Shown here: in pieces, positions 4,592 to 63,145 of the stretch
How the letters are laid out: the number at the start of each line of letters is the position of its first letter
Position numbering within the stretch: position 1 is the stretch's first letter
From: Deltaproteobacteria bacterium
GTDB taxonomy: Bacteria; Myxococcota_A; Polyangia; Polyangiales; JADJMO01
Reading direction: 5' to 3'
DNA length: 64,000 nucleotides
Assembly: GCA_022843175.1 (NCBI GenBank)
Contig: JALHOE010000009.1
Coordinates: forward strand, 1 to 64,000
Notes under the pieces: generated by a model
What the model saw: only the letters and a program-made list of their open reading frames with translations
Database searches by the model: none
What the model was told of the DNA's origin: nothing
Program-made: the position numbers and the translations under genes

Positions 4592-6097
4592 CTATTCGGT
4601 GGAGGATATGGGGATCGAACCCACGGCCTCTAGAGTGCGATTCCGGGGTTTTTGAGGCCTGGGCCGACGACGGCGCAGTTTCCTCGCCCTTCGCCGGGGC
4701 CGTCCCCGGCCATCCGCAGCGCCGGAAGACACCTGGCGGACAGCGGCGGCGTGAGCGGCCAGCTCGGGGATCGCCTCGACCATCGAGCGGTAACGCGTCT
4801 GCCCGCGCTCGGCGAGGTGAGCAGCGGGGCGCCGATACTTCTGGTTGAGCATCCGGCTGTCGACGTGGCCGGTCCGCATCATGATCCAGGTCTCCGACTC
4901 GGCGCGCGCGAAGGCCATCGTGGCGAAGCATGCGCGGAGATCGTGAGCGACGAGCTGTTTACGCGTCTTCGTCGACTCGAACAGCTCCGGGCGATCGATC
5001 CCGACGGCGCGCAGATCCTCGCGCAGGTCGTCGGCGAGCTTCTCGACATTCACGGCGGCCTGCCCATCGGCGGCGAACACGAAGCGGCTCTTGGTCGGTT
5101 GCAACGTCCGCCAGATCCGCAACGCCTCTGCGACGTCGTCGGCAGCGTTCCAGAAGCGCGGGCCGACGCGGTCGACGGTCTTGTGAATCTCGAGGGTGAG
5201 CTCGGCGCGCTCACTATCGAACCACCCCGCGGCGTCCTTGGAACGCTCGTCCGACCACTGCAGCGTGCTCGCTTCCTCTTTGCGAAAGCCCTCACGAACC
5301 AATGCGCCGTAGAGGATGCGCCTGCTGAGCGGGACGACGGTATCCCCAGCAGCGTTTCGACCCGCCAGCAATTTCGCTTCCTCTTCGACGTGGATGAAGC
5401 CTCGCGCGCGGCGCTTCCCTCCGCCCTTGGGCACGAAGTTGCTCGGCAGCGGGTTGGAGGGGCGCAGGCCGAGCGGATTCACTGACAAGTCGAGAACGCG
5501 CTTCATCGTCCACGCAATCATCTGCTTGGTCGCGTCGGAGAGAGCATCGCCGTACTTTGCTTCGATGCGAGCCATGACCTCGTTGCACTGCGGGAGGTCC
5601 ACGGCGGCGATCGGTAGGTCGCCGATCACGGGCTCGACGTAGGTCTCGCTCTTGTATTTGATGTCGGCTGCGTGCTCCTTCCCCATTACGCGGACAATCG
5701 TGGGGTACCTGCGATGGAGGGTTCCGTCCGTCAGGAGCGCACGTACGTCCGCGTAGCTCACGCCGCCGAGCGGCGCCTCGTCACGAGGCGGCCAGCGGTC
5801 CGCAACGATCAGATCGACGACGCGCGCGATGTCGTCGAGCTTCTTCTGGCTGTCTGCGCGTGCGACCTGTTCAACCGTGCGTACGGTCCAGTCGTCCTTG
5901 CCAGCCGCTCGCAGTTTCGAGCACAGGTTCGACGCGAGGCGCGCGCGCGCCCGACCCTCGTCTTCGCTCGTCGCGCTCGGGACCTTCGCGGTCTTGCGCC
6001 GTTTGTTACCGAGCGAGACCTTGATGAAGACGCCACCCTCGGCATCGACGTATACCGTGCCCTCGTTGGTACCCTTGTCGTCCATGGCCTCCCTCAT
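4592..6097 (-). CDS. Tyrosine recombinase (integrase) of the tRNA-Ala element; 3' end overlaps the attachment repeat
   Basis: A 501-residue site-specific recombinase. Catalytic residues of the family are visible: an arm I arginine in EGFRKEEASTLQW, HDLR at about 385-388, the second histidine in RTGH (about 411) and the nucleophile tyrosine in NQKYRR (about 421). The first 200 residues hold the arm- and core-binding region. The ATG at 6097 is chosen because it overlaps the stop of the upstream ribbon-helix-helix gene as ATGA. The last codons (VGSIPISSTE) are the tRNA fragment read in frame, and the stop follows directly after the 49-bp repeat. Recombination with the right-hand repeat keeps the frame and would replace this stop by 72 further codons (62846-63064). 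Myxophage Mx8 is known to change its integrase C-terminus on integration in the same way. The role of the tail here is inferred. Confidence 0.93.
   Translation of the reverse strand: MREAMDDKGTNEGTVYVDAEGGVFIKVSLGNKRRKTAKVPSATSEDEGRARARLASNLCSKLRAAGKDDWTVRTVEQVARADSQKKLDDIARVVDLIVADRWPPRDEAPLGGVSYADVRALLTDGTLHRRYPTIVRVMGKEHAADIKYKSETYVEPVIGDLPIAAVDLPQCNEVMARIEAKYGDALSDATKQMIAWTMKRVLDLSVNPLGLRPSNPLPSNFVPKGGGKRRARGFIHVEEEAKLLAGRNAAGDTVVPLSRRILYGALVREGFRKEEASTLQWSDERSKDAAGWFDSERAELTLEIHKTVDRVGPRFWNAADDVAEALRIWRTLQPTKSRFVFAADGQAAVNVEKLADDLREDLRAVGIDRPELFESTKTRKQLVAHDLRACFATMAFARAESETWIMMRTGHVDSRMLNQKYRRPAAHLAERGQTRYRSMVEAIPELAAHAAAVRQVSSGAADGRGRPRRRARKLRRRRPRPQKPRNRTLEAVGSIPISSTE
4595..4643. repeat. 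Left attachment-site repeat (att core, 49 bp)
   Basis: These 49 bp are identical to 63065-63113, where they form the 3' part of an intact tRNA-Ala gene, from anticodon-stem position 30 to 5 bp past the 3' end. The flanking base differs on both sides (a versus t on the left, c versus t on the right). Here the tRNA 5' half is missing, so this is the detached copy produced by integration. It sits within the last codons of the integrase gene. Confidence 0.93.
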
Positions 6098-19906: not shown

Positions 19907-21244
19907 ATGGCCTACTCACGCATCGTCGGCGCCGTTTCCATTTCGATCCTCGGCGGCTTCTTGGTCGCGTGCGCTGGGCCCGATGGCAAGGAGGGCCCCG
20001 CGGGGCTCGCTGGTCCGGCGGGACCACAGGGTCCGGCCGGTCCGGAGGGACCTCCGGGCACGACGCCCTTCATTGATGCAGGCGTCGACGGCGCGACCAC
20101 CAACAGTTGCGCACAACCCTGTCACGGCTTTGGCAACGTTGTCGATCAGTGGAAGTTCAGCGGCCACTACAAGATCAGCGCAATGGCGGACGACAACCCG
20201 ACTTGGACCGGCGCCGCGAGCTGCGGCAACTGCCATGCGCTCGATGGGATCGAGCGACGCGTGGCCGGGGTGGTGACCGTCGCCGACGGCGGCGTCGCGA
20301 GTGGTGTGGCCAACGGCCACCTCAACTTCCAGACAGCGACCGGCGGTGCCGCCGAGGCCGTCTACGCGGGCCTGGGCAAGAACGCGATCATCCACTGCTC
20401 CACGTGTCACGCCTTCACGCCGACGAACGATCCCCACGTCACCGGGAAGTACGAACCCGGCTCGGCGCCCCTCCGCGTTGCTTCCGGACCGGACGATCAA
20501 TCGTTGATCGAGAAGAGCCCCGCGGACGCGGGCGTCGTCGGGCAGCCGGCCGGGAAATACAAGGCCGGGAACACGTGCGTCTTCTGCCACAAGTCGAGGC
20601 GCGACGTCACCGCGTTCATCACGCCGGCCAATCGCATGAGCAGCACGCGCTGGGGCCCGCACCAGGGACCGCAAGCAGACATCTACTCGGGCAAGGGAGC
20701 ATATCACTTCCCCGGACAATCGTACGGGACGTCGGTGCACACGACGCTCGCCAACGGCTGCGTCGGTTGTCATATGACGCCCGTCGCGTCGAACAAGAAC
20801 GTCCCCGATCACTCGATGATCGCCTCGATCGCCGCTTGCAAGACGTGCCACACGACGTACACGGGCACGAGCTACGACATCCAGAGCGGCCAGTCGACCG
20901 TTCGCGCCGGTCTTTTCGAGCTGCAAGCCGCGCTCAACGCACGTGGATTGCTCACGCGTAGCAGTGCTGCTCCGTTCGTCGCGATGTCGGAAACGGAGCT
21001 CCGCGATGGAGCCTTCCAGCTCGATCAACCGCGCCCACAGAGCGGCGTCGGACCGGACGGTGGTGTCGCTGACCAAGTCCTCAGCGCTACGGACGCGGGC
21101 GCCCTCTACAACTACCTGCTCCTCGCGCGAGGACGCGACTTCGGCGTGCACAACCCGACGTATACGAAGCAACTCCTCTGGGACTCCATCCGGCAGATCA
21201 AGGGCACCACGCCTACGTTCATGAGCGCGCGCGCGAGCTCGTGA
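19907..21244 (+). CDS. Multihaem c-type cytochrome lipoprotein with collagen-like stalk
   Basis: A 445-residue protein. The signal peptide ends GFLVAC (lipidated Cys about residue 22). Residues of about 24-51 are nine Gly-x-y triplets rich in Pro, a collagen-like stalk. Then follow haem-binding motifs: CAQPCH (C-x3-CH), CGNCH, CSTCH, CVFCH, CVGCH and CKTCH, so five canonical and one extended site. His residues for distal ligation are frequent in the same part. The C-terminal 120 residues have no haem sites. I infer an envelope or cell-surface electron carrier held away from the membrane by the stalk. The gene at 21311 follows by 66 bp and is probably co-transcribed. Confidence 0.88.
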   Translation: MAYSRIVGAVSISILGGFLVACAGPDGKEGPAGLAGPAGPQGPAGPEGPPGTTPFIDAGVDGATTNSCAQPCHGFGNVVDQWKFSGHYKISAMADDNPTWTGAASCGNCHALDGIERRVAGVVTVADGGVASGVANGHLNFQTATGGAAEAVYAGLGKNAIIHCSTCHAFTPTNDPHVTGKYEPGSAPLRVASGPDDQSLIEKSPADAGVVGQPAGKYKAGNTCVFCHKSRRDVTAFITPANRMSSTRWGPHQGPQADIYSGKGAYHFPGQSYGTSVHTTLANGCVGCHMTPVASNKNVPDHSMIASIAACKTCHTTYTGTSYDIQSGQSTVRAGLFELQAALNARGLLTRSSAAPFVAMSETELRDGAFQLDQPRPQSGVGPDGGVADQVLSATDAGALYNYLLLARGRDFGVHNPTYTKQLLWDSIRQIKGTTPTFMSARASS

Positions 21245-21310: not shown

Positions 21311-21964
21311 ATGGACCGAAATGCGATCATAGTTATCGGTGTCATCGGCGGAGCCGCGGTCTTCGCGGCGACGCGGAGCGCAGCACCGAATGCCCCCTCG
21401 TCGGCAACCACACAGCCGAGCGCGGTACCCGAACAGGCTGCGACGCAAGCACTCACCACGAACCATCCGCCGATCGGAAACCTGCCGGCCAACCACCCGC
21501 CGGTCGGCGCAATCCCGACCGGCGCACAGAAGCCGGAGGCGGCCCTGCTCTGGACCGCGCCTGCACGCTGGGAGGCGATCCCCCATCCGAGCGCGATGCG
21601 TGTCGCGACCTATCGAGTTCCCAAGGTTGCGGGCGACGTCGAGGACGGCGAGCTCTCGGTGACGCGCGCAGGGGGCGACGTCGAGCAGAACCTGACTCGT
21701 TGGGTCCAGCAGTTCGACGAGCCGAGTCGCGCGAGCGCCAGACGTGCGACGAAGCTCGTGGGCACGCTGAAGGTCCATACCGTGGACCTCGCGGGTACCT
21801 ACACGACGATGCAGGGAGACATGGAGCAGGGCTTCGCCCTCGCTGGTGCCATCGTGGAGTCGCCGGCTGGCCTGCACTTCTTCAAGCTCACCGGCCCCGC
21901 CAAGACCGTCGCGGCAGCGCGCGCCGAGCTCGATGCTTTGGTGGCTTCGCTTCGGGCACGCTGA
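21311..21964 (+). CDS. Unknown exported or membrane-anchored protein downstream of the cytochrome
   Basis: A 217-residue protein. An N-terminal hydrophobic segment (IIVIGVIGGAAVFAA) is followed by a low-complexity linker with a repeated NHPP(I/V)G motif, then a globular domain beginning LLWTAPARWEAIP and containing VAGDVEDGELSVTR, DVEQNLTRWVQQF and AGAIVESPAGLHFFKLTGP. I recall this domain layout in unstudied proteins of myxobacteria and planctomycetes, but no activity is known to me. The position suggests a partner of the stalk cytochrome. Confidence 0.65.
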   Translation: MDRNAIIVIGVIGGAAVFAATRSAAPNAPSSATTQPSAVPEQAATQALTTNHPPIGNLPANHPPVGAIPTGAQKPEAALLWTAPARWEAIPHPSAMRVATYRVPKVAGDVEDGELSVTRAGGDVEQNLTRWVQQFDEPSRASARRATKLVGTLKVHTVDLAGTYTTMQGDMEQGFALAGAIVESPAGLHFFKLTGPAKTVAAARAELDALVASLRAR

Positions 21965-22173: not shown

Positions 22174-23001
22174 GTGCGGGGCGGACGCTTCTACGGGCGG
22201 CGGGCGATCCTCGTGTCTAAGCACGGCAAGGAACAAGCGATCGGGCCAGCGCTGGCCGAGCTCGGTGTCGAGCTCGAGGTCGCGAACGTCGACACCGACC
22301 GCTTTGGGACGTTCACCGGCGAGGTCGAGCGCACCGGCAGCGCGCTCGATGCAGCTCGCGCGAGAATCGCGACTGGCATCGCGACGTGCGGTGGCGACCT
22401 ATTTGTCGCGAGCGAAGGCAGCTTCGGGCCCCATCCCGTCCACGGGCATCGTGCGTGCGATCACGAACTGGTGCTGCTCCACGACTGCCAAGACGACCTC
22501 GAAATCAGCGGCGAGCACCTGACCGACGACACCAATCACGGATCACACGTCCTGCGACGCGGCGACGACCCACGACCCGTCGCTGCGCGGATCGGGTTGC
22601 CGACGCACGCGGCGCTCGTGCGCGCCGGAGGGACATGTGTCGCGAAGGCAATCTTCGATGACACGCGGCTACGGGAGGTGCTGACCGCTGCCTTCGCTGA
22701 ATGGAAGGAGGTCGTCGTCGAAGCGGAGCTGCGCGCGATGTGCAACCCGCGCCGCATGCGCGCCATCGCCAGCGCATCGCGCGCGGTCGTCGACGCGGCG
22801 CGCTCGCTGTGCCCGCGGTGTCAAACACCGGGCTTCGTAGCGCGGTCGGTCCGCGCGGGATTGCCCTGCGAAGACTGCGGCGTCCCCACGAAGATCATCG
22901 CCGCCGATATCGCCGATTGCCGACGGTGCGGCCACACCTGTGTCGTTCCGCGGAGTTCAACGCATGCCGCTGCTCGATGGTGCAATGTCTGCAACCCCTG
23001 A
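22174..23001 (+). CDS. DUF6671 family protein with two CxxC zinc-ribbon-like pairs
   Basis: A 275-residue protein from GTG 22174. It matches my recollection of DUF6671: GRRAILVSKHGKEQAIGPAL near the start, DTDRFGTFTGEVER, LFVASEGSFGPHP, ELVLLHD and DDTNHGSH, then a C-terminal part with CPRCQTPGF, CEDCGVPT, CRRCGH and CNVC, i.e. paired CxxC knuckles that should bind two zinc ions. No activity is established for the family as far as I know. Its last 38 bases overlap the start of the murF-like gene, so the two are translationally linked. Confidence 0.8.
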   Translation: MRGGRFYGRRAILVSKHGKEQAIGPALAELGVELEVANVDTDRFGTFTGEVERTGSALDAARARIATGIATCGGDLFVASEGSFGPHPVHGHRACDHELVLLHDCQDDLEISGEHLTDDTNHGSHVLRRGDDPRPVAARIGLPTHAALVRAGGTCVAKAIFDDTRLREVLTAAFAEWKEVVVEAELRAMCNPRRMRAIASASRAVVDAARSLCPRCQTPGFVARSVRAGLPCEDCGVPTKIIAADIADCRRCGHTCVVPRSSTHAAARWCNVCNP

Positions 23002-32871: not shown

Positions 32872-32885
32872 GGGAGAGACGGCGT

Positions 32886-32901
32886 AGCGAATGTTGTGCC
32901 G
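32886..32901 (-). promoter_or_regulatory. Sigma54-type promoter of the divergent murF paralogue
   Basis: CGGCACA-ACAT-TCGCT has GG-N10-GC spacing; ATG 32871 lies 16 nt after the -12 GC. An activator-like palindrome lies 51 bp upstream. Confidence 0.6.
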
Positions 32902-32952
32902 CTGCGATTGCTCGGCGAACTGCGACGCGTGGACTTGTCCTTCGTAGCGATC

Positions 32953-32967
32953 TGCCACGCCGTGGCA
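32953..32967. promoter_or_regulatory. Inverted repeat TGCCAC-GCC-GTGGCA, putative activator site
   Basis: A perfect 6-3-6 palindrome with the same half-site as the others but in outward orientation. It is 51 bp from the sigma54 element at 32901. Confidence 0.5.
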
Positions 32968-35688: not shown

Positions 35689-36174
35689 ATGGTCAAGCAA
35701 CTGTTCGTCGCGCTGGCTGCGTCGGTCACTCTCGCGTGCGTGCCCGCCATTGACCGACCTCCGGAATCTCCCGCGCCGCGCGCACCGGAGACACATCACC
35801 TCGCATGGTGGCTCGGCGTCCAGGCAACGCGCGCCTCGTTCGGCGTGGCACCCAGCATGTCGGTGCGCTGCCCGGATGCCGCCTCCGAGGCCCCAATCGG
35901 GTCCGAGACCTGGTGGAAAGACGTCGTCGCGGGCCTCGCGGCGTGTGAGCGGGCGGGGGTCCTCGCGCCGTACGACATCGTTCTGCACGTGCATCTCCAC
36001 GAGGAGCCCTCGCCGGCGCTTCGCCGGTACGTCGGCGACATCGCGCGGACCATCGAGCACGCGCTCGACGCGGAGGCGGTGGATGCCGCAGTGCGCGCCC
36101 ATTACGCGATCACCCCCGAGCGGCCGGTCACTCACCGCGTCACCATCGACCTGGCTCTCGAGCCGACGGAGTGA
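35689..36174 (+). CDS. HHxAWWLG-family lipoprotein, copy B
   Basis: A 161-residue paralogue of copies A and C. The signal MVKQLFVALAASVTLAC is followed by a Pro-rich linker, THHLAWWLGVQATRASF, GSETWWKDVVAGLAACERAGVL, LRRYVGDIARTIEHAL and a final HRVTIDLALEPTE. The first motif has HHL where A and C have HHH. It follows the histidine-kinase gene by 38 bp and probably also has its own sigma54 promoter. Function unknown; outer-membrane or inner-membrane anchoring cannot be decided. Confidence 0.8.
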   Translation: MVKQLFVALAASVTLACVPAIDRPPESPAPRAPETHHLAWWLGVQATRASFGVAPSMSVRCPDAASEAPIGSETWWKDVVAGLAACERAGVLAPYDIVLHVHLHEEPSPALRRYVGDIARTIEHALDAEAVDAAVRAHYAITPERPVTHRVTIDLALEPTE

Positions 36175-36309: not shown

Positions 36310-37293
36310 TCACCCGAGGTCGGAGGTGAATCGCTCGGGCCGCGAGATCAGCACGTCGCATGGGGCGTGCGCGAGAATCCAGTTCGCAGTCGAGCCGAAC
36401 AAGAGACGCTCGACCCCGCTGCGAGCGTGCGTGCCGAGGACGACGAGGTCAGCGTGTCGCGCGCGGATTTCCCGGACGATAACGGAACATGCACCGCCGT
36501 TGCGGAACGTCAGAACCCATCGCCGCGCAGGCTCCGGTAGAAGGGCCTCGATCGCGGCACGGCGGCTGTCGGCGAACTCACGACGGAGCTCTCTTCCCTT
36601 GCCCGCAGGCGGGACCGCGGCGTTCGTGAAGGGGCGTTGTTGAGCGTGAATCACGCGCATCGTGACGGCTGGACGAACGACCAGGCACGCCGTATCGAGC
36701 ACCGCGGCGGACGCGTCGCAGAGGTCGACCGCGACGAGCGGAAGCTCGTACGGCCAACACGGCGCGCGATTCACAACCAGGACCGGCGTGCTGCCGGTGC
36801 GAATGACGCTGTCGGCCGTCGCGCCAATGCGAGAGCCGGCGGCGGGGCGGCCCCCGACCACCGTGAGGTCGGCCCGGTACAATCGCGCAGCGCGCACAAT
36901 CGCCGCGGGTGCATCACCGGCCACAACCTCCACATCGACATCGACGCCGACTCGAGACGTCAGTTCGCGTCGTCCCTGCTCGAGGCGCGCGCGTGCATCG
37001 GAGGCTTCGTCGGGAGCGCTGCTCGACGCGACGTGCAGCAGGAGAACCGACGCGTTGCCCGCAAGTGGAAGCATGGATGCTCGCTCGATCGCCGAGCTGG
37101 AAGCGATGGAGAAGTCTGTTGCTACGACGAGACGCCGAAGCTCCGGCAGCGGGAACCTGCGTCGCGCGACAGGCGTTGATGCGGCGCGTGTATTTGAACT
37201 CGACATCACTCCCGGCATCGCAACCGCTGTTCCAACCCACGCCGCGATCCGTCGCGGTCGGCCGATGACGGCGCCGCGGGTTGCACGGGTCAC
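36310..37293 (-). CDS. Tandem universal stress protein (two USP domains)
   Basis: A 327-residue protein if the GTG at 37293, overlapping the CBS stop as GTGA, is used; an ATG at 37200 (MSSSNTRAAS) would remove 31 residues with no fold. Domain 1 (ELRRLVVATDFSIASSSAIERA ... VGGRPAAGSRIGATADSVIR) has an imperfect ATP loop. Domain 2 ends VVLGTHARSGVERLLFGSTANWIL, a good G-x2-G-x9-G-S/T ATP-binding loop. Such proteins are induced by starvation, anaerobiosis or other stress. It forms an operon with the CBS protein. Confidence 0.9.
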   Translation of the reverse strand: MTRATRGAVIGRPRRIAAWVGTAVAMPGVMSSSNTRAASTPVARRRFPLPELRRLVVATDFSIASSSAIERASMLPLAGNASVLLLHVASSSAPDEASDARARLEQGRRELTSRVGVDVDVEVVAGDAPAAIVRAARLYRADLTVVGGRPAAGSRIGATADSVIRTGSTPVLVVNRAPCWPYELPLVAVDLCDASAAVLDTACLVVRPAVTMRVIHAQQRPFTNAAVPPAGKGRELRREFADSRRAAIEALLPEPARRWVLTFRNGGACSVIVREIRARHADLVVLGTHARSGVERLLFGSTANWILAHAPCDVLISRPERFTSDLG

Positions 37294-37715
37294 CGCAGCT
37301 CGGACGCATCGACGGCGCGCTCGATCCCATCGCCGAGATCCTTCAGCTCACGGGCGAGCAGCTGGACCAGGTCGTCGTGCGTGACGATGGCAACGAGACG
37401 ACCGCGCTCGTCGACCAACGGCAACCTTCGCGTGCCGGCCAACCGGATTTCGCGCAACATGGTCGGAATCGCTGCCGTCGCCGGGGCCGTGACCGGCGCG
37501 GGCGTCATGACGGCAGCGACCTCCGTCGTGGTGGCCAGGCTCTCTGCGACCACCCGAAGCGCGAGATCGCGGTCGGTCACGATCCCGATCGGTCGCTCGT
37601 CGCGCACGATGACGACGCAACCGACGTGATGCGCGCGCATAATCTGCGCCACCTCGGCGACGGTGGCACTGGGACTCGCGGTGATGACTGGGGTCGTGGC
37701 GATGTGGTCGGTCAT
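37290..37715 (-). CDS. CBS-domain pair protein
   Basis: A 141-residue protein with two CBS domains: TPVITASPSATVAEVAQIM..VGCVVIVRDERPIGIVTDRDLAL and VMTPAPVTAPATAAIPTML..RRLPLVDERGRLVAIVTHDDLV. It would bind adenine nucleotides. The ATG at 37715 has a GAGG ribosome site and a sigma54-like element 24 nt upstream. The gene runs directly into the tandem USP gene. It is a distant paralogue of 16368-16781. Confidence 0.9.
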   Translation of the reverse strand: MTDHIATTPVITASPSATVAEVAQIMRAHHVGCVVIVRDERPIGIVTDRDLALRVVAESLATTTEVAAVMTPAPVTAPATAAIPTMLREIRLAGTRRLPLVDERGRLVAIVTHDDLVQLLARELKDLGDGIERAVDASELR

Positions 37716-37737
37716 GGCTGCCTCGGACAGCGGCCGT

Positions 37738-37753
37738 TGCGAGCGGTATGCCG
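37738..37753 (-). promoter_or_regulatory. Sigma54-type promoter of the CBS/USP operon
   Basis: CGGCATA-CCGC-TCGCA, GG-N10-GC spacing, 23 nt before ATG 37715. It lies almost back to back with the promoter of the divergent USP gene. Confidence 0.5.
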
Positions 37754-37774
37754 TGCCCGCGCGCGCGCCGCGGC

Positions 37775-37790
37775 GGGTGTGCCGCTTGCA
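37775..37790 (+). promoter_or_regulatory. Sigma54-type promoter of the single-domain USP gene
   Basis: GGGTGTG-CCGC-TTGCA has a perfect -12 box; the -24 box keeps GG and the last G. ATG 37805 is 16 nt after the -12 GC. Confidence 0.5.
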
Positions 37791-37804
37791 CGCAGCGTCC
37801 TCCC

Positions 37805-38326
37805 ATGGAGAAGCGCGTGCGCCGCTACGTGGTCGGCCTCGACGACGATCTGGGTCTTGCCGCTCTCGACCGCGCCGTCTCCACCGCGGTCGCGAGCGAT
37901 GCCGAGGTCCACGCGGTTTTCGTTCAGGCCGAAGTCACAGATCTGGCGCGCCTCGTTGCGAACTCGTCGCCACCGAGCATGGAGCGCGGGCTCGAACGCC
38001 TGGTGCCGCTCGTAAGAGAACGCGTCGCGCGGCTCGGACCGCGTGCACCGGTCGTGATCGTGCACGGGGTCGTGGGAAGCGCAGCCGACGCCCTCGTTGC
38101 GTGCGCGGCGGTGTTGGACGCGGAGATGATTTTCGTCGGGACGCATCGACGCACCGGGATCAGCCGCCTGGTTCGGGGGTCGGTCGCGGAGCAGGTGGTG
38201 CGGTCGGCGGGTTGCCCCGTCACCGTCGTACGGGGGCGAGCCCACGACCTCTCCGCTCGATGGCCCGCCCTTCATCGGCAAGTCGGCGTGTGCGGGCGCC
38301 CGACGAACGGCGGCAGCACGGCCTGA
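37805..38326 (+). CDS. Universal stress protein, single domain
   Basis: A 173-residue protein. MEKRVRRYVVGLDDDLGLAALDRAV begins the fold, and IFVGTHRRTGISRLVRGSVAEQVVRSAGCPVTVVR is its ATP-binding end with the G-x2-G-x9-G-S loop. About 25 residues extend beyond the usual end. It is divergent from the CBS/USP operon, with both promoters in the 89-bp gap. Confidence 0.9.
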   Translation: MEKRVRRYVVGLDDDLGLAALDRAVSTAVASDAEVHAVFVQAEVTDLARLVANSSPPSMERGLERLVPLVRERVARLGPRAPVVIVHGVVGSAADALVACAAVLDAEMIFVGTHRRTGISRLVRGSVAEQVVRSAGCPVTVVRGRAHDLSARWPALHRQVGVCGRPTNGGSTA

Positions 38327-38362: not shown

Positions 38363-39778
38363 ATGGAAGCACGCCAGACCAGCCGACCGAGGGATGCGAC
38401 ACCGCGCCGCGTCCGCGCACGCCCAAACTCGATCGCGCGAGCAGCGTCGCTCGCCATCCTCGTCGCTGCAGGGATGGCTGGTTGCGCCTCCGAGCGCGCC
38501 CCCCTCGAACCCTCGTATCGCGACAACATTGCTGCGCTCGTGGCGGCGCGCTGCACGTCGTGCCATTCGGGCGACGCGCCTGCTGGCGCTCTGCGACTGG
38601 TGTCGTACCTCGATCTAATCGGCTGCGCGAATGGCGAGCCGCTTACGCTGGGCGCCGATCCGAAGCTGCTGCGCGCGCTCGAAAGTCCGTCGCATGCGAG
38701 TGTGATCGACACGAAACCGCGCCTCGCTCAATGGCTCGCGCGCGGAGCGCCCCTCTCCAACGGCGGAGTGCATCCACCCGACTTCGTCGACCCGCGGTCC
38801 GCAGCGGCACATGGCCGCTTCCTACGTGACCGCCGCTGGAAGCCGATGCTCGACCTCAAGGACGCCGACGCGTGTGGGAAGTGCCATGCGGGAACGCCGG
38901 CGAGCGGCGCGTCGATGGCGCCCGGCGCGACGACGTGCACGTCGTGTCACACGGAGTCGGTTCTCGCATGCAACACCTGCCACGGCGCGGCGGAGGCGTA
39001 TCCGCCGAGGGACGCCTGCTTCTTCCCCGGCGAGAAGGCGGGCGCGCATGCCGCGCATGCGGAGCCGAGCGCGTCGGCGCCGGCCGGCGTTCCGTGTGCG
39101 GGCTGCCACCCGGTGCCGACCGACGGGCGCCCCGCCGGCGCACACGGCGATGGCGGCGCGCAGGTATATCTCGCGAGCGGCAGCTTCAACGCGACGACGA
39201 AGACGTGCACGACGACGTGCCACGCAGGCACCGGCGCGCTGCGGCCGACGCCGAACTGGACCGACGGGAAGATGGCGTGCGGCGATTGCCACGCGGCACC
39301 GCCGCCAGCGCATCCGGCAGGGGCTTGTGCGAACTGTCACTCGCCTCTCCTGCACGTCAATGGGCGACTCGATCTCGGCGACGGCAGCGGCAAGTGCGGA
39401 GCGTGCCACGGCGTGGCCGACGATCCACGACCGAAGACGGCCGCGCACGGCAAGCACGCCTTCGACTGCAACACCTGTCACGCGGTCGACGCCAAGCATC
39501 CCGATGGGATGTTGAGCGTCCGCTTGCTGGGCCTGGCCGCGAAGGGTGGGCGCGCCCCGGTGTACGACGCAGCGACCAAGACCTGCACCAGCACGTATTG
39601 TCACGACCTCGCGGGGGGAAGCCATCGCACCCCGAAGTGGAGCGAGACGCTCACGGGGTGCAACGCTTGTCACTCCTCGCCGCCGCCTCCGCCGCACACG
39701 ACGAGCGTCGGGTGTGGGACGGCGAGGTGTCATCTCGATGTCGCCGGCAAGCACGTGAACGGCGCCATCGATCTCTGA
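38363..39778 (+). CDS. Multihaem c-type cytochrome lipoprotein (10 CxxCH plus 3 extended sites)
   Basis: A 471-residue protein. An Arg-rich n-region of about 25 residues leads to a signal segment ending AAGMAGC. There are ten CxxCH motifs (for example CTSCHSG, CGKCHAG, CAGCHPV, CGDCHAA, CNACHSS), one C-x3-CH (CTTTCH) and two C-x4-CH (CTSTYCH, CGTARCH). The pair CTSTYCH ... CNACH fits the CxxxxCH...CxxCH motif first noted in Geobacter cytochromes. Up to 13 haems are possible. It probably works at the cell surface with the convergent porin-cytochrome operon, whose last gene ends 6 bp away. No sigma54 element is evident upstream. Confidence 0.93.
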   Translation: MEARQTSRPRDATPRRVRARPNSIARAASLAILVAAGMAGCASERAPLEPSYRDNIAALVAARCTSCHSGDAPAGALRLVSYLDLIGCANGEPLTLGADPKLLRALESPSHASVIDTKPRLAQWLARGAPLSNGGVHPPDFVDPRSAAAHGRFLRDRRWKPMLDLKDADACGKCHAGTPASGASMAPGATTCTSCHTESVLACNTCHGAAEAYPPRDACFFPGEKAGAHAAHAEPSASAPAGVPCAGCHPVPTDGRPAGAHGDGGAQVYLASGSFNATTKTCTTTCHAGTGALRPTPNWTDGKMACGDCHAAPPPAHPAGACANCHSPLLHVNGRLDLGDGSGKCGACHGVADDPRPKTAAHGKHAFDCNTCHAVDAKHPDGMLSVRLLGLAAKGGRAPVYDAATKTCTSTYCHDLAGGSHRTPKWSETLTGCNACHSSPPPPPHTTSVGCGTARCHLDVAGKHVNGAIDL

Positions 39779-39784
39779 CCGCGT

Positions 39785-41422
39785 CTATCGGAAGATGTGG
39801 CAGCCCTTGCAGCTGGTCGCACCGGGCATGTGATCGACTTGCTTGGTGTGGCAGGTGCCGGTGCACGTTGCCCGATCGGACTTGGTGGGCGCGTGACCGC
39901 TGTGACAGCTCTGGCAGGTCGTGTGTTTTGCGTGGAGCGCTGGAAGCTTGGTGTGGCAGGAGCCGCAGCTTGGCGGTGCGGCGACGCCGCTCGGTCCGTG
40001 GGGGCGGTGGCAGGTCGCACACGAGAGCGTCGAGTGTTGCGTCTTCGGCTTGTCTGCGTGGCAGGACGCGCACGTCTTCGCGACCGTGCCCGTGTGGCTC
40101 GTGTGACAGGAGTTGCACTTGCCATGGCCCTTCGGCGCGGACGTGGCTTCCTTGTCGTGGCAGTTGCTGCAGGCGACGTCCTTGGCGGGCGCGTGCGCGG
40201 AGCCGTGGCATCCGATGCAGTTGTTGTGACCGACTGCGGTCGTCACCTTGGCGTGGCACGTGGCGCACGCCGGGGCCTTGAACTCGTGCTGCGCATGGCA
40301 CTTGTTGCAGGCGACGCCGGCGTGCAGCTTCGTGTCGATTGGCGCGGTCTTGTGGCAGGAGGTGCAGGTCGCGACGGTGATGTTTGCGGTCGGATGGGGC
40401 GCATGACAGCCGTTGCACGTTCCCGACGCGACGCCGGGGTGCTTCGTTGCGATCTTGTCGTGGCACTTGTTGCAGGACGGCTTGTTCGTGGGGGCGTGGA
40501 CGTCGTGGCAGCTCGTGCACTTGTCGTGCGCTGCGATGCGCGCGGCGCCGAGCGCTTCGTGGTCCTTGTGACAGCTCCCACACGCGCTCGCCGCACCCAG
40601 GGGTGCGTGAGGCGCGTGGCATGAGGTGCAGTTGCCGTGACCCTTCACGGTCGCGACGGCGGTCTTCGGCGCGTGACACGTAGAGCAAGCCTGCTTCGCG
40701 CTCACCTCGTGCGGGGCGTGGCACGTCGTGCAGGCCGGGTGGCCTTTTTGCTTCACGACGGGCGGCGTCGTCGCGTGGCACGGCGCGCAGTTGTTCTTGG
40801 CGTCGGCCGCCGCGCTGTGCGGGGCGTGACAAGTGGTGCACGTCTGGGAGGTGGCCGGACCGTCCGCATCGCGCAGCTCGGACGCGACGTCCGGTACGAC
40901 CATTGCGTCGCCGGCGTTGACGATCCGGGCTGCGCCATGCTGGGCGCTCACGTTGGCGTGACAGCTGGTGCAGCGCGCGTTGATCGTCTTCGGCTCGCCA
41001 TGCGGCGCGTGGCAGCTCGTGCACGGCGAGCTCGCGCCGCCGTGATGCTTCTTCTCGTTGGCGTGGCAATCGAGGCAACCCGGAGCGACGGCGCCGTCCT
41101 GCATGGAGAACGAATGACATGTAATGCAGGTGGTCGGCTTCTGAGCGCTGCCCTGATGGTGCCGCTTGGCCTTGTCGTCGTGGCACTTTGCGCACGGCGC
41201 TGCGCCGGGTGACTTGAAGCCCTCTGTGTCGGTGTGACAGTCGGCGCACGCGACCACGTGCCCGTCGGCAGCCTTCTTTCCGAGGTGCGCGGCGTGGCCC
41301 GGTGTCGCGCGCGCGCCGCTCCAGGTGGTGGGGACCTCGGTCGGTGCCGGCGGCGAGCCGCGGTCGCACGCTGCGACCAGGGCGCCGACGAATACCGCCA
41401 CGACGAGTAACCACCGGGTCAT
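39785..41422 (-). CDS. Giant multihaem c-type cytochrome lipoprotein (26 CxxCH plus one C-x3-CH)
   Basis: A 545-residue protein with lipoprotein signal MTRWLLVVAVFVGALVAAC. I count 26 CxxCH motifs and one CTGTCH, about one haem per 20 residues, spread evenly from residue 60 to the C-terminus (last CKGCHIF). Many repeats have the form CxxCHAPH, giving regularly placed distal His. The protein is essentially a haem wire with little other fold. It starts as ATGA over the stop of the preceding 13-haem gene. Together with the porin gene at the operon's head it suggests electron transfer across the outer membrane. Confidence 0.95.
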   Translation of the reverse strand: MTRWLLVVAVFVGALVAACDRGSPPAPTEVPTTWSGARATPGHAAHLGKKAADGHVVACADCHTDTEGFKSPGAAPCAKCHDDKAKRHHQGSAQKPTTCITCHSFSMQDGAVAPGCLDCHANEKKHHGGASSPCTSCHAPHGEPKTINARCTSCHANVSAQHGAARIVNAGDAMVVPDVASELRDADGPATSQTCTTCHAPHSAAADAKNNCAPCHATTPPVVKQKGHPACTTCHAPHEVSAKQACSTCHAPKTAVATVKGHGNCTSCHAPHAPLGAASACGSCHKDHEALGAARIAAHDKCTSCHDVHAPTNKPSCNKCHDKIATKHPGVASGTCNGCHAPHPTANITVATCTSCHKTAPIDTKLHAGVACNKCHAQHEFKAPACATCHAKVTTAVGHNNCIGCHGSAHAPAKDVACSNCHDKEATSAPKGHGKCNSCHTSHTGTVAKTCASCHADKPKTQHSTLSCATCHRPHGPSGVAAPPSCGSCHTKLPALHAKHTTCQSCHSGHAPTKSDRATCTGTCHTKQVDHMPGATSCKGCHIFR

Positions 41423-42453
41423 GGCGTGTGACAGAGCCGACAGGGCTCGTCCTTCGTCTTGTCCTTGGTGCTCGAGAACGTGGGTCCGTGCGGGCTCCCG
41501 CCGGGCGCACCGACCTTATGACAGCCAACACACAACATCTCGCCCGCGCCGCCGTGACAGCTCGCGCATGAGACCGGATCGAGCCGCGCGGCCTGTCCGT
41601 GAAGGCCGCCCACGGCGCGGACCCACCCCGGCGGGTGCGGGGTCGGCACGCCCTTCTTCGCGGCGACGTTGCGATCGACGTGACACCCGAGGCACGAGCT
41701 CTCGCTGTGACAGGTAACGCACAGCGCGGGTTGGGCGCGCGCCTCATCCGGGTGGCGGGCCATGAAGTTTCCCGGGTGTAACCGGGAGAGCGTCGGCGAT
41801 TCGATTGCGAGCTTCCACGGCAGCACCGCCGTCGTCGCGCCATGACAGACATCGCAGGACGACTGGCTGTGGCAGGTCGCACAGAGATCGCGCGAAGAGG
41901 CCGCGCGGACGCCGTGCTCGCGGAGGAAGTCGCCCTCGTGCACGATGTGGCTCGACGGCTTGATGTGCTCCGACGGCAGATCGTGGTGGCAGCTGTCGCA
42001 GTCGCGGACCTTGAATTGGTCCTTGTGTTGGTGACACGTGAAGCACTGGGCCATCGGTGGCCGGCGCGTCTCGCTGTCGGGCTGACCGGCGGCCGCATGG
42101 CACGGCACGCACTGGCCGGTCACCTTGGCCATGTGACCCTGATGGGAGAAGCGGAGGAACTTCCGCGCGGCGAACGCGCCCTCGCGCGCCGGCGGCGTGC
42201 CGTGGCAATCGTTGCAGGCGCGCGTGTCGTGCGGCTTCTGATGGCAGCTCGTGCACGTCGCCGTCGTCGGGATGTGGAGCGGTCCGTCGTCGCCGGTCTT
42301 GTCGATATCGGCGTGACAGCTCACACACGAGACGCCGGCGAGCGCGTGCCGCTTGTGCTCGAAAGGGCGACCCTGATCCTTCTTCTTGAGGCCGAGCACG
42401 CCCGCGCACGCGGCAACGCTCATCGATGCGAACAGCAAGATCGCTGGCCTCAT
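41419..42453 (-). CDS. 13-haem c-type cytochrome lipoprotein
   Basis: A 344-residue protein. The signal MRPAILLFASMSVAAC precedes 13 CxxCH motifs (CVSCHAD, CTSCHQK, CNDCHGT, CVPCHAA, CFTCHQH, CDSCHHD, CATCHSQ, CDVCHGA, CVTCHSE, CLGCHVD, CASCHGG, CVGCHKV, CRLCHTP). FEHKRHALAGVSCVSCH and FSHQGHM give extra His ligands as in NrfB/MtrA-type and octahaem cytochromes. It overlaps the porin gene upstream and the 26-haem gene downstream by ATGA. A periplasmic partner of the porin is the likely role. Confidence 0.94.
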   Translation of the reverse strand: MRPAILLFASMSVAACAGVLGLKKKDQGRPFEHKRHALAGVSCVSCHADIDKTGDDGPLHIPTTATCTSCHQKPHDTRACNDCHGTPPAREGAFAARKFLRFSHQGHMAKVTGQCVPCHAAAGQPDSETRRPPMAQCFTCHQHKDQFKVRDCDSCHHDLPSEHIKPSSHIVHEGDFLREHGVRAASSRDLCATCHSQSSCDVCHGATTAVLPWKLAIESPTLSRLHPGNFMARHPDEARAQPALCVTCHSESSCLGCHVDRNVAAKKGVPTPHPPGWVRAVGGLHGQAARLDPVSCASCHGGAGEMLCVGCHKVGAPGGSPHGPTFSSTKDKTKDEPCRLCHTP

Positions 42454-43604
42454 CGCGAACGCTCGAACGTATAGGTGACGCGACCGAGCGCGTGCAGCTC
42501 GCGCCGCTCGTCGCGTGTGGTCACCGCTTCGATACCGGCGACGAAGTCCCAACCGCGTGGCGCGCGATATGCGAGCGCGAGGAGCGCCCACGGCCAGAAC
42601 CGGCCGTCGTCGTGACGGACGGCCTCGATCTCCGTGGCCAACCGAACCGACGCGCCGAGCGGAATGCCGAGGAGCGCGCGCGCGCCCGTCCACCGCGCGC
42701 TGCCGACGTACTGTCTGCGAAGCTCGACGCCGAGGGTGCCGAGCGCGTCGTCGTCGAGAGCAAGGGTCGCGCGCGCGGTGGCGAACCCGCCGAGATCACG
42801 TCCCATCGCGATGCCGCCGCCGGTGCCGAGAAGATCGAGCCGTGGCGCGATCTTGTAGCGGACCGTGCCGCCGAACGTGGTGCTGGGGATGTCGCCAAGG
42901 ACCGTGAACACCGAGGTGGACGGCAGGATGCGCGAGGGCGAGCGGTGGGTGAGAAAGCCCTCGGCGCGGACGTCGCCCGAGTGCGCACCGATGGAGAACA
43001 ACGCGTCGCTCACGCCGCGGGTGACGAGATCGACGGCGAGGCGGCTCGCGATGTCGACGCTCTTGCTCGGCGAGATCGCCAGGTCCGGTCCGACCTCTTG
43101 ATCCGCGATGCGACCGTCGCGCCGCTGCATGATGTACGAGACGCCAAGGACCGCGAACGACCCAATGGGCTGGCCGACGCGACCGCCGAAGGCGCTGTCG
43201 AACATGCGCGAGCCGAGCCGCGGTGCGACCGGTGCACCCCCGAACAGCTCGAGGGTCGTGCCGAACGGGGCGCGGCCGAGCGCGCGGACGCCGTCGAGGT
43301 GTAGCGGCCGGATCGCGCCCGATGCGAAGACAAACCTCCCGAGCCGCACTTCGCCCGCGCTGCTGCGAAGCCGCACCGTCAGGGTCTGGACATCGCCCGT
43401 GACCTCGGGAGAATGGCGCGCACCGACCCATGCGACGGTCTCGACATCGATCCAGGGCTTCAGGCGGTCTTCGCCGCGAAGCACGAGCAGCCCGACGGGC
43501 GAGCGTGTTTGCACGAACGCATCGCCGCGGAGGCGGAGTGGGTCCGCGCTCGCCGATGCCGGCATGAGAAGTGCGAAGCCGATGGCGAGGGCGCTTTGAA
43601 ACAC
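42450..43604 (-). CDS. Outer-membrane porin-like beta-barrel of the cytochrome operon
   Basis: A 384-residue protein from GTG 43604 (GGAAA just upstream) with signal peptide FQSALAIGFALLMPASASAD. The rest is strand-rich with alternating residues and aromatic belts (DVQTLTVRLRSSAGEVRLGRFVFASG, YVGSARWTGARALLGIPLGA, VTYTFERSR). It is first in an overlapping operon with the 13- and 26-haem cytochromes, the arrangement of porin-cytochrome conduits. It is shorter than MtrB (about 650 residues) and I see no MtrB-type CxxC. The start overlaps by 9 bp the start region of the divergent NapC-like gene. Confidence 0.75.
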   Translation of the reverse strand: MFQSALAIGFALLMPASASADPLRLRGDAFVQTRSPVGLLVLRGEDRLKPWIDVETVAWVGARHSPEVTGDVQTLTVRLRSSAGEVRLGRFVFASGAIRPLHLDGVRALGRAPFGTTLELFGGAPVAPRLGSRMFDSAFGGRVGQPIGSFAVLGVSYIMQRRDGRIADQEVGPDLAISPSKSVDIASRLAVDLVTRGVSDALFSIGAHSGDVRAEGFLTHRSPSRILPSTSVFTVLGDIPSTTFGGTVRYKIAPRLDLLGTGGGIAMGRDLGGFATARATLALDDDALGTLGVELRRQYVGSARWTGARALLGIPLGASVRLATEIEAVRHDDGRFWPWALLALAYRAPRGWDFVAGIEAVTTRDERRELHALGRVTYTFERSR

Positions 43605-44234
43605 TTTCCAATCGACGAGCACAACCTTCTGTCGGTGGCCGCCGTGGTGTGCGCCGCGCTCGCCGCCGCCATCCTCGTTGTGTACCTGGTGCGGCGGCCG
43701 CCGCGGGAGCATCGAGCGACCAAGCTGTGGTTGCTGATGGGCCTCGGCGTGCTGCCGATCGCCGCCGCGACGTCCGCCAACGTGCAGGGATACAAGGCGA
43801 CGCAGCATCGAGCGTTTTGCGGATCGTGTCACGTAATGGTCCCGCATGCCTCCGACTCGGACGACCCCAAGAGCAACTCGCTTGCCGCCGTCCACGCGCG
43901 CAATCCCTACTTCGGCAAGGACAACTGCTACACCTGCCACGCGGACTACGGGATGTTCGGCACGTTCTTCAGCAAGCTCGGGGGCATGCGCCACGTGTGG
44001 TTCTATGCGACCGAGTTCCGCACGATGAGCCTCGAGGAAGCCAAGCACAAGATCCACTTGGTGAAGCCCTACCCCAATGCGAACTGCATGCAATGCCACA
44101 CCACGACGGCCCCGGGGTGGAACAAGCTGCCCGACCACGCGAGCGCGAAAGACGCTGTGATCGCAGAGAAAGTCGGCTGTTCGAGCAAGGGCTGTCACGG
44201 CGTCGCGCATCCGCTGACCAAGGAGACGAAATGA
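43596..44234 (+). CDS. NapC/NirT-type membrane tetrahaem cytochrome
   Basis: About 212 residues from a TTG at 43596 (ribosome site GGCGAGG); no ATG fits. Two hydrophobic segments (LLSVAAVVCAALAAAILVVY and LWLLMGLGVLPIAAA) precede CGSCHVM, CYTCHAD, CMQCHTT and CSSKGCH. The last is a C-x4-CH in place of the usual CxxCH. Family members take electrons from quinol and pass them to periplasmic partners, here probably the multihaem proteins encoded divergently. A weak sigma54-like element (43560-43575, CGGCATG-AGAA-GTGCG) lies 21 nt before the start. Two membrane segments rather than one is unusual for NapC. Confidence 0.85.
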   Translation: MKHFPIDEHNLLSVAAVVCAALAAAILVVYLVRRPPREHRATKLWLLMGLGVLPIAAATSANVQGYKATQHRAFCGSCHVMVPHASDSDDPKSNSLAAVHARNPYFGKDNCYTCHADYGMFGTFFSKLGGMRHVWFYATEFRTMSLEEAKHKIHLVKPYPNANCMQCHTTTAPGWNKLPDHASAKDAVIAEKVGCSSKGCHGVAHPLTKETK

Positions 44235-44437
44235 GCACGCGTCGCGAGAAAGTGCTCCGAATCGCAAGCGTATTGGCGCTCATCGGGCTCGCGCTGATGG
44301 TTTGGTCAGTGCTCTCGCCAACGCCGCTGCCGGTGCTGGTCGGGCTGTCCATCGGCCAGGCCATCGGCACGCTGTCTTTCGTTCTCTTCCTCGGTGTGGT
44401 CGCCGCCGACCTCGGGCTGAAGCAGAAGTTGCGTTAG
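44231..44437 (+). CDS. Small two-span membrane protein co-translated with the NapC-like cytochrome
   Basis: A 68-residue protein starting as ATGA over the NapC stop. Two hydrophobic helices (VLRIASVLALIGLALMVWSV and PVLVGLSIGQAIGTLSFVLF) leave short basic ends (MSTRREK, LKQKLR). It may anchor or stabilise the quinol-oxidising complex. No homologue is recognised. Confidence 0.75.
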   Translation: MSTRREKVLRIASVLALIGLALMVWSVLSPTPLPVLVGLSIGQAIGTLSFVLFLGVVAADLGLKQKLR

Positions 44438-44486: not shown

Positions 44487-44963
44487 TCAGTGCGCCGGTT
44501 CGAGCGCGAGCTCCACCGCGACGCGGTGACGGAGCGCCCGGTCGGGCGCGATTGCGAACGCGTCGCGCACCACGGTGTCCGCCGCCGATGCCTCGAGCGC
44601 GAGTCCGATCGTGCCCGAGAGGTCGCGCACGTAGCGGCGGATGGGCGGTGCAGGCGCGTCCAGAAGATGCGCCCGAACCACAACGTCGAAGTGTTCGAGC
44701 GCCCCCTTCTGCTCGCAGGCGACGAGGCCGGCGATCACGGACCGCCACCACGCCTCGGAGCCCGCAGCGTGATCGGACACCGCCTCCGGACATCTCGCCG
44801 ACAGGCTCGGACCGATCTCGAACGCGGTTCGAGACGCCTGCAAGCCGAGCCACCAGGCGTGGTGGTGCGTCTCTGGAGCTGGTGAGGTGACAGGCGTTGG
44901 AGGCGCGTTCGCGGCGCACCCGAGAGCGAGCGACGCGGCGAGAAGCAAAACGTACTTCGTCAT
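44487..44963 (-). CDS. HHxAWWLG-family lipoprotein, copy C
   Basis: A 158-residue paralogue. The signal MTKYVLLLAASLALGC has an ideal lipobox. Then come ETHHHAWWLGLQASRTAF, GSEAWWRSVIAGLVACEQKGAL, IRRYVRDLSGTIGLAL and RHRVAVELALEPAH. It is closest to copy A. The ATG at 44963 has GAGGCGAGG upstream and lies 14 nt after the TTGGA-type sigma54 element. It is divergent from the truncated Mur-ligase gene, with a perfect palindrome at 45118-45132 between them. Confidence 0.82.
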   Translation of the reverse strand: MTKYVLLLAASLALGCAANAPPTPVTSPAPETHHHAWWLGLQASRTAFEIGPSLSARCPEAVSDHAAGSEAWWRSVIAGLVACEQKGALEHFDVVVRAHLLDAPAPPIRRYVRDLSGTIGLALEASAADTVVRDAFAIAPDRALRHRVAVELALEPAH

Positions 44964-44975
44964 TCCTCGCCTCTT

Positions 44976-44991
44976 TCCAAGCGACGTGCCA
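44976..44991 (-). promoter_or_regulatory. Sigma54-type promoter of lipoprotein copy C
   Basis: TGGCACG-TCGC-TTGGA: perfect -24 box, TTGGA variant as at copies A and B. Confidence 0.55.
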
Positions 44992-45117
44992 GGTCGCTTC
45001 TCGATGGCGGCGGCCTTCTTCGAGCGCCGGTTCGCGCGACGACAGCCCCAGCTGCCAGTCTTCACGGTGTGGTTTCGGCCCGCGTCGGCACCGACGGCCG
45101 TGGCAGTACGCGACAGC

Positions 45118-45214: not shown

Positions 45215-46393
45215 ATGGCTGCAGATGACCTCTTCACGCTCGCCGCCCACCATCGCCGCGCCTGGGCCACGACTCCCTCGCCCTTCTCACGTGACGTGGT
45301 CGCGATCACGGGTACCTCGGGCAAGTCAACGACGCGACGCCTGCTTGCAGCGCTGCTTCGCGCAGCGACGGGCGCCGAGATCCTCGAGAACCGCGGCGAC
45401 CAGACTTCAGCGCGCGACCTCGCCCGGTGTCTCCTCGCACTGCGGCCCTCGACCGCCGCCTGCGTGCTCGAGGTCTCTGCGCGCCGCCGGGGCGACCTCG
45501 CGCGCCTCGCGTCGATGATTGCCCCCGACTTCGGCGCACTCACGCTCGTGGACATCGCGCACAGCGACGCGCTCGGCTCGATCGACCACATCGAGCACGA
45601 GAAGGGCGACCTGCTCCGCAACAGCAGGACGGCCTCGGTCAACGCCGACGACCCGCGGTCGCTTCGTCAGCAGATGACCGCACCGCGCGCGGGCGTAACG
45701 TGGGGATTCTCCCCTTCGGCGGATTACCGGGTGATGTTCCGCGCCTCGCGTGGCCTTGCCGGGTCAACGGTCAGCATCGCGCGACCGCGCGACGTGCCCC
45801 TCACCCTTGATGCGCCCGTCTTTGGCGAGGCGGGAGCCCGCGCGGTGGCGGCCGCCGTCGCACTTGCCGAGCAGGCGCTCGGCTCGCCGCTGGATCTCCG
45901 CGTCGCGCAGAAAGCGATGGCCTACATCGGTGAGGAGACCGCGCGATTCTTTCCGCGGCGTCTCGCCGACGGCACCGTGCTCCTCGCCGACGCCGCCGAC
46001 GCGACGCCCACCTCCATGCGCTCGGCCATCGAAATCGCGCGCGAGCTCGCCGACCACGAATCGCGGCGCCTGATTGTCGTCGCCGGCGCGATGAGCGCGC
46101 TCGGTCGTGCATCGCTCGGGGCTCATACGGCCGTGGGCGTTGCCTGCGCGCGAGTCGAGGCCGACGCGGTCCTGGTTTGCGGGCGAGAAGCTTCGCCGAT
46201 CGGCATCGCCACCCTGGCACACGGGATCCCGACCCACTTCGCCCGCGATCGCTACCTCGCGGGAAACGCCCTCATCGACCTCGTGCGGCCCGGCGACTTC
46301 GTGTTGCTCGCGGGCGGGCATGACGCACCGATGAAGTTCCTCGGCGACGTCGTCGCGCGCGCTGGCCGGGGCGCTGCCGCCCGCGCGGCATGA
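45215..46393 (+). CDS. Mur-ligase-like protein lacking the N-terminal substrate domain
   Basis: A 392-residue protein. After a 25-residue lead it begins directly with the ATPase domain (VVAITGTSGKSTTRRLLAALL) and continues through ALTLVDIAHSDALGSIDHIEHEKGDLL to the C-terminal ligase domain. Compared with MurF (about 455 residues) the whole UDP-binding first domain is absent. The MurF signature DYNANP is DAADATPTSM, as in the paralogue at 31360. GVTWGFSPSADYRV is also shared with that paralogue, so they form a divergent pair. A cyanophycin-like or signalling role is possible; a murein ligase role is unlikely. Confidence 0.85.
   Translation: MAADDLFTLAAHHRRAWATTPSPFSRDVVAITGTSGKSTTRRLLAALLRAATGAEILENRGDQTSARDLARCLLALRPSTAACVLEVSARRRGDLARLASMIAPDFGALTLVDIAHSDALGSIDHIEHEKGDLLRNSRTASVNADDPRSLRQQMTAPRAGVTWGFSPSADYRVMFRASRGLAGSTVSIARPRDVPLTLDAPVFGEAGARAVAAAVALAEQALGSPLDLRVAQKAMAYIGEETARFFPRRLADGTVLLADAADATPTSMRSAIEIARELADHESRRLIVVAGAMSALGRASLGAHTAVGVACARVEADAVLVCGREASPIGIATLAHGIPTHFARDRYLAGNALIDLVRPGDFVLLAGGHDAPMKFLGDVVARAGRGAAARAA

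Positions 46394-63064: not shown

Positions 63065-63145
<81 letters not shown>

Follow-up and report, generated by a model that had tools for sequence, protein, structure and literature searches.

A probable porin-cytochrome conduit with its own NapC-like quinol oxidase on a tRNA-integrated island of a Labilithrix-like myxobacterium

Introduction

In the Myxococcota, extracellular electron transfer has mainly been discussed for Anaeromyxobacter. The porin-cytochrome (Pcc) clusters of this genus (Group IV; Shi et al. 2014) encode a porin and a cytochrome of 338-344 amino acids with 12-14 haems, and one of these cytochromes was more abundant under Mn(IV) reduction; no outer-membrane cytochrome gene was reported from these clusters (PMC4245776). 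In Geobacter, the components of different conduits share no homology; ExtB has 18 predicted strands and ExtE has 21 (PMC6148476). In MtrCAB, MtrB has 26 strands and MtrA has 10 haems (PMC7198977). The quinol oxidase gene cymA is clustered with mtr or mto genes in some bacteria (PMC6295460).

Here we analyze a window of 64,000 nucleotides from contig C9 of a 9.75-Mb genome, which groups among Labilithrix-like Myxococcota in a tree of the 13-haem protein described below. A reading of the sequence alone had proposed that six genes of this window could carry electrons from quinol across both membranes. Like the Anaeromyxobacter clusters, which come from the same phylum, the locus has a small porin beside a cytochrome that is comparable in length and haem count (here 344 amino acids and 13 haems; the comparison is by size and haem number only). 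Unlike them, it adds a surface-type lipoprotein cytochrome, a NapC-like protein with a small partner, and a 26/27-haem cytochrome. It shares with OmbB-OmaB-OmcB and ExtABCD/ExtEFG of Geobacter the combination of a periplasmic multihaem cytochrome, an outer-membrane barrel, and lipoprotein cytochromes, but those operons, as described, contain no quinol oxidase (PMC6148476). The logic of a cytochrome in a barrel is that of MtrCAB, MtoAB, and PioAB, although no relevant family model recognises the barrel, and the 13-haem protein has only a weak match to the MtrA/DmsE model. We think that the locus probably encodes a Pcc-type conduit, of a kind found in Myxococcota, that has its own quinol oxidase and sends electrons outward.

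Results

A compact cluster of six genes

When the genes were re-read from the sequence, every one of the six was recovered where the sequence-only reading had placed it, at 38363-44437:

38363..39778, plus strand: lipoprotein cytochrome with 10 CxxCH and 3 CX3-4CH motifs, proposed surface cytochrome (TIGR01904; place in distant relatives)
39785..41422, minus strand: cytochrome with 26 CxxCH and 1 CX3CH motifs, proposed periplasm-spanning wire (haem count; N-terminal anchors among homologues)
41419..42453, minus strand: 13-haem cytochrome c lipoprotein, proposed trans-outer-membrane wire (13 CxxCH; lipobox; adjacency to the barrel)
42450..43604, minus strand: predicted beta-barrel, porin-like sheath, 384 amino acids with signal peptide (AlphaFold2 model; Foldseek; alignment conservation)
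43596..44234, plus strand: putative NapC/NrfH-type tetrahaem quinol dehydrogenase with two N-terminal helices (PF03264; invariant Met81 and Lys127)
44231..44437, plus strand: two-helix membrane protein of 68 amino acids (ATGA overlap; co-occurrence with the NapC-like gene)

The described layout was also borne out. The barrel, 13-haem, and 26/27-haem genes are linked by ATGA overlaps (42450-42453 and 41419-41422), the divergent NapC-like and two-helix genes overlap by ATGA as well, and the gene for the 10+3-haem cytochrome converges on the minus-strand trio. The barrel and NapC-like reading frames lie head to head, and their likeliest starts (GTG and TTG) overlap by 9 bases (43596-43604). Because the same 9-base overlap is found in a second copy of the cluster on contig C11 (L025:4530-4538), the start assignments of these two genes need caution. 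Unless the starts are misassigned, the overlap in both copies would place each promoter inside the other gene.

The gene set is far beyond chance, judging from the 13 CxxCH motifs of the 13-haem protein, all of which are invariant in a 15-row alignment, and from its recurrence in about 50 genomes. The genome also contains cytochrome c assembly genes, and the proposed wire totals about 57 haem motifs.

The barrel and the 13-haem lipoprotein

The barrel protein has a Sec-type signal and no cysteine. It is conserved across a 16-row alignment, and in the AlphaFold2 model from this alignment (mean pLDDT of 75.1), residues 38-378 contain 21 long strands. The model is poor for the N-terminal 37 residues, where a further strand probably lies, for a predicted total of about 22. 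No relevant family in Pfam or NCBIfam, including the MtrB/PioB and porin models, matched the barrel at E <= 0.1, and a search of PDB sequences with the barrel profile gave only spurious matches. Foldseek matched the model to the outer-membrane barrels FimD, VDAC, PapC, AlgE, and MtrB (6r2q_B, E = 4.7e-4), none of them close. We found no barrel homologue on plasmids.

With 21 modelled strands and a probable N-terminal one, the barrel falls short of the 26 strands of the MtrAB/PioAB type and within the 18-22 strands predicted for Pcc porins, which were described as far smaller than MtrB (PMC4245776). It had been suggested from the sequence that a barrel so much shorter than MtrB would be a different conduit design; we dropped this idea because published Pcc porins are of that size. 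A barrel too narrow to hold a cytochrome had been named as grounds for rejecting the conduit. In ideal-barrel geometry, 22 strands with a shear of 24 give a backbone diameter of about 40 Å (26 strands with a shear of 28 give 47 Å). MtrA measures about 80 x 30 x 35 Å, and the pore of MtrB is about 30 Å wide at its periplasmic face (PMC7198977). By these dimensions, a slim haem wire inside a barrel of about 22 predicted strands would be tight yet possible, so the objection does not apply.

The gene that overlaps the barrel gene encodes a protein with a lipobox and 13 CxxCH motifs, which places it within the 5-14 haems of the periplasmic-side cytochromes that neighbour Pcc porins. Against TIGR03508 (the MtrA/DmsE decahaem family), it scores 24.8 bits, far below the cut-off of 192.2, and it has 13 haems instead of 10. 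All 50 of the homologues that were scored have a lipobox with alanine at position +2. The 13-haem protein is thus predicted to be a lipoprotein, in contrast to MtrA and OmaB, for which a soluble periplasmic state has been described. AlphaFold2 gave no usable model for it (pLDDT of 46); haems are outside the method, and the fit of cytochrome and barrel stays a proposal.

The quinol end

The NapC-like protein, with three CxxCH motifs and one CX4CH, scores 43.3 bits against PF03264 (curated cut-off of 24.1), which agrees with its first description, and falls below every equivalog cut-off in NCBIfam. Two of its invariant residues, Met81 and Lys127, fall in the alignment at the positions of Met49 and Lys82 in NrfH of Desulfovibrio (2j7a_C), which we take, from NrfH structures, to be the heme-1 methionine and the quinol-site lysine. 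The protein thus shares with NapC, NrfH, and CymA the PF03264 domain, four haems, an N-terminal membrane anchor, and the equivalents of these two residues. It differs from them in its CX4CH fourth motif, its two N-terminal helices, an invariant histidine at the position of NrfH Asp89, and its constant two-helix partner. Just two PF03264 genes are present in the genome, this one and its paralogue, and both lie in conduit clusters. The best reading is that the NapC-like protein is a quinol dehydrogenase (oxidase) that serves the conduit.

The small partner has a conserved G-Q..G-T.S motif and matched no family in NCBIfam or Pfam. The two genes occur together in 40 of 40 loci.

Other inputs may also exist. 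A Rieske protein, a cytochrome b, and a 9-haem cytochrome are found in the conduit neighbourhoods of L038 and L026, along with a 23- or 31-haem protein (the families were assigned with Pfam for L038, and the L026 genes were named by length and resemblance). This suggests that the Rieske/cytochrome b set may be an alternative input and that the quinol-oxidising inputs may be exchangeable. Sets of this kind, with proteins of 23-33 haems, lie at L038:3770-6541, L026:474-5764, L041:1-4953, and L042:4840-9905; the last two are similar to L038 by gene length and haem count. We also considered a fusion of a NapC domain to the 31-33-haem relatives and rejected it: there is only a weak NrfH-like start in L026 (TIGR03153, 2.4e-4), which a local NapC profile did not support.

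A large cytochrome, probably for the periplasm

The 26/27-haem protein (545 amino acids) has a lipobox, AAC-Asp. Aspartate at position +2, which is also found in the C11 paralogue and in the L044 copy, keeps lipoproteins in the inner membrane in E. coli, a rule that may differ in Myxococcota. A hydrophobic N-terminal anchor without the lipobox cysteine is present in 28 of 48 homologues; the others have a lipobox. Because most homologues have a membrane anchor instead of a lipobox, and given the aspartate, the protein is probably attached to the inner membrane, from where it would extend through the periplasm as a wire, rather than being part of the outer membrane. This role differs from the one implied by its first description. 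In MtrCAB, 20 haems cover 185 Å (PMC7198977); by this scale, 27 haems would cover about 250 Å, near the width of the periplasm, as a rough estimate from haem number. A PDB sequence search with the protein returned no matches.

Proposed surface cytochromes

The 10+3-haem protein scores 70.6 bits against TIGR01904 (cut-off of 27) and has a lipobox-like N terminus; a PDB sequence search returned no matches. It recurs in the conserved core: members of its family adjoin the barrel and 13-haem genes in distant relatives. This three-gene core in other classes implies that the convergent cytochrome of the window is a core member and not a bystander. The sequence-only reading had counted up to 13 haems, which is consistent with the 10+3 motifs, but the part that it implied for the protein needs revision, as this lipoprotein is likely the surface cytochrome.

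In two loci of distant relatives (L097:4493-8461 and L099:4724-8593), very large surface-type cytochromes of about 1300 amino acids, with 28 CxxCH and 8 atypical motifs, stand in for the 10+3-haem protein. In L101, whose core also has a NapC-like neighbour, a gene for a decahaem protein of the OmcA/MtrC family lies beside the conduit (251 bits; curated cut-off of 209).

Two more genes of the window may belong with these:

19907..21244, plus strand: collagen-like (GPxGPx) lipoprotein with 5 CxxCH and 1 atypical motif (weak MtrC/MtrF-domain and collagen matches)
21311..21964, plus strand: accompanying protein of 217 amino acids (paralogue at the equivalent place on C11, 55% identical)

The collagen-like lipoprotein is likely an accessory surface cytochrome of the same island, and its paralogue directly adjoins the conduit on C11. 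The 217-amino-acid protein had no match in Pfam.

Distribution

A search of 97 relatives for the barrel matched 27, about 15 of them strongly. Across 84,980 GTDB species genomes, the 13-haem profile identified 53 named loci. Nearly all of the carriers are metagenome-assembled genomes of Myxococcota (Labilithrix, Polyangiaceae, Kofleriaceae, Sandaracinaceae, Nannocystis, and others). A few record titles name other taxa, such as "Actinomycetes bacterium" (L072), which falls inside the Myxococcota clade of the 13-haem tree and is probably mislabelled. One carrier is an isolate, Minicystis rosea DSM 24000 (L071), which has the barrel, 13-haem, 26-haem, NapC-like, and surface cytochrome genes. This cultured myxobacterium is generally regarded as aerobic, a point against the proposed reading.

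Among 51 loci with the barrel, some of which are cut by contig ends, the 13-haem gene is present in 50, the 26/27-haem gene in 46, the NapC-like and small genes in 40 each, and the 10+3-haem gene in 38. In 17 loci, all six genes are co-directional, in the order surface cytochrome, NapC-like, small, barrel, 13-haem, and 26/27-haem; the arrangement of the window is found in 12. In other classes of Myxococcota, the recurring genes begin with a surface-type cytochrome (in most cases with 7 to 28 CxxCH and further atypical motifs), followed by the barrel and a 12-14-haem protein; this is the usual porin-cytochrome plan.

In a sample of 379 Myxococcota genomes, 44 matched the barrel profile at E <= 1e-6, and nearly 90% had no barrel homologue at this threshold. 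The 13-haem profile had 115 matches in the sampled genomes at E <= 1e-20, the weaker of which may be other multihaem proteins.

A second copy in the same genome

The second full copy of the conduit lies at G000:C11:3673-9901. In the 13-haem tree, the two copies are sister sequences with full support. They are 85-87% identical for the barrel, the 13-haem protein, and the NapC-like protein, and 68-70% identical for the 26/27-haem and 10+3-haem proteins. Values of dN/dS between the copies are 0.09-0.30 throughout, which indicates, at the level of sequence, that purifying selection maintains both. A genome of the same genus (G001, 91% completeness) contains no barrel.

Universal-stress and CBS-domain genes lie near both copies (36310-38326 in the window; L025 11941-16148 and L130 4434-4856, the latter being C11 24434-24856), hinting at an energy-stress regulon.

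A tRNA-integrated island

The cluster had been placed on a mobile element, and the following features of the window support this:

4592..6097, minus strand: tyrosine integrase (Phage_int_M / Phage_integrase, below curated cut-offs)
4595..4643, plus strand: left attachment repeat, a 49-bp exact copy of the 3' half of tRNA-Ala, overlapping the 3' end of the integrase gene
63065..63113, plus strand: right attachment repeat inside tRNA-Ala (49-bp exact repeat)
63068..63142, minus strand: tRNA-Ala(CGC), the integration target (ARAGORN)

This tRNA is the one tRNA that ARAGORN found in the window. A repeat of the 3' end of a tRNA gene at both ends, together with an integrase, is what characterises tRNA islands, and these sequence features place the conduit cluster on a tRNA-integrated island of 58.5 kb with about 49 called genes. 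The integrase has a 43% identical paralogue in its own genome, and in G002, a 41% identical integrase adjoins the orthologous tRNA-Ala. The same esterase gene adjoins the orthologous tRNA-Ala in four relatives, whose contigs end at or near the site. GC content does not sharply mark the island, and no conjugation genes were found among the island genes that were scanned with Pfam (part of the total).

Other cargo includes an RND efflux pump, a Na+/H+ antiporter, a cation ATPase, a mechanosensitive channel, an NtrC-type regulator, and isocitrate dehydrogenase. Three small lipoproteins of the island are paralogous (15245-15724 and 35689-36174 on the plus strand and 44487-45065 on the minus strand), with a motif like PAPETHHHAWWLGLQASR; one of them was compared to Pfam, with no match. 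The gene at 44487-45065 converges with the small gene of the conduit. There are also three Mur-ligase-like genes (31363-32958, 45215-46393, and 22964-24334; two identified by Pfam and the third by eye), which are not an obvious cell-wall set.

Discussion

In the mechanism that we propose, the NapC-like tetrahaem protein and its two-helix partner would oxidise menaquinol in the inner membrane and hand the electrons to the 26/27-haem protein, which would be tethered there and cross the periplasm. From this protein, the electrons would move through the 13-haem lipoprotein, enclosed by the barrel of about 22 strands, to the 10+3-haem lipoprotein at the cell surface. This last protein would reduce an external acceptor, for example Fe(III), humics, an electrode, or a second cell. 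We infer the transfer order, the protein locations, the direction, and the acceptor; the gene set, the motifs, the fold prediction, the conservation, the duplication, and the island are observed or computed. The path from quinol to the outside that was first read from the sequence is still the best reading, short of proof.

We consider it unlikely that the same conduit runs inward, with the surface cytochrome accepting electrons from Fe(II), from another cell, or from a cathode and the NapC-like protein reducing quinone with them. Proteins of the NapC/CymA type operate both ways (PMC6295460), and the Rieske/cytochrome b/9-haem set near the conduit in L026 and L038 could serve either direction. 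However, no genes for carbon fixation or iron oxidation were noticed beside the cluster, in an inspection that was not systematic, and genomes of 4-11 Mb suggest heterotrophs.

We give less credence still to a purely periplasmic role, in which the cytochromes store electrons or donate them to a periplasmic reductase, and the barrel, an ordinary porin, is co-transcribed with them by chance. The classical role of NapC/NrfH proteins is to supply periplasmic enzymes, and a capacitor function, as suggested for large multihaems (PMC11495043), is conceivable for the 26/27-haem protein. Against such a role, the barrel gene adjoins the 13-haem gene in 50 of 51 loci, and the pair recurs in the three-gene core of distant relatives; also, the barrel matches no porin family model, and the cluster encodes no catalytic subunit such as NrfA. 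Finally, the conduit is very unlikely to feed a specific surface or secreted enzyme instead of minerals, as DmsEFAB does in Shewanella: Mtr-type modules can pair with surface reductases and the 13-haem protein has its weak DmsE-family match (24.8 bits against a cut-off of 192), but in the neighbourhoods that we inspected, we noticed no gene for a molybdoenzyme or a different reductase next to the cluster, and the recurrent extra genes encode multihaem lipoproteins.

Returning to the outward conduit, its trans-outer-membrane core is of the known Pcc kind. What is new here is the conserved NapC-like dehydrogenase with its dedicated small partner and the anchored 26/27-haem cytochrome. This gene set was not described in the open-access literature that we searched; the subscription literature and preprints may differ. 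A bolder and more tentative idea, which we hold as possible rather than probable, is that the set forms a one-unit wire from quinol to the surface: a NapC-like protein, a tethered 26/27-haem protein that replaces soluble shuttles, a 13-haem protein in a barrel of about 22 strands, and a surface cytochrome. Such a wire would be widespread in Myxococcota, and the island could install extracellular respiration in one step.

The mtrCAB genes have been hypothesised to be a mobile element (PMC8805035), and the island described here shows one concrete way in which extracellular respiration could spread horizontally, as has been proposed. The question of how electrons get across the periplasm also gains a testable answer from the fixed six-gene set, namely a tethered 27-haem wire as opposed to free cytochromes, and Minicystis rosea is a cultured carrier. 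If the proposed conduit works, many myxobacteria with large genomes, often predators, could respire with solids or partners as acceptors.
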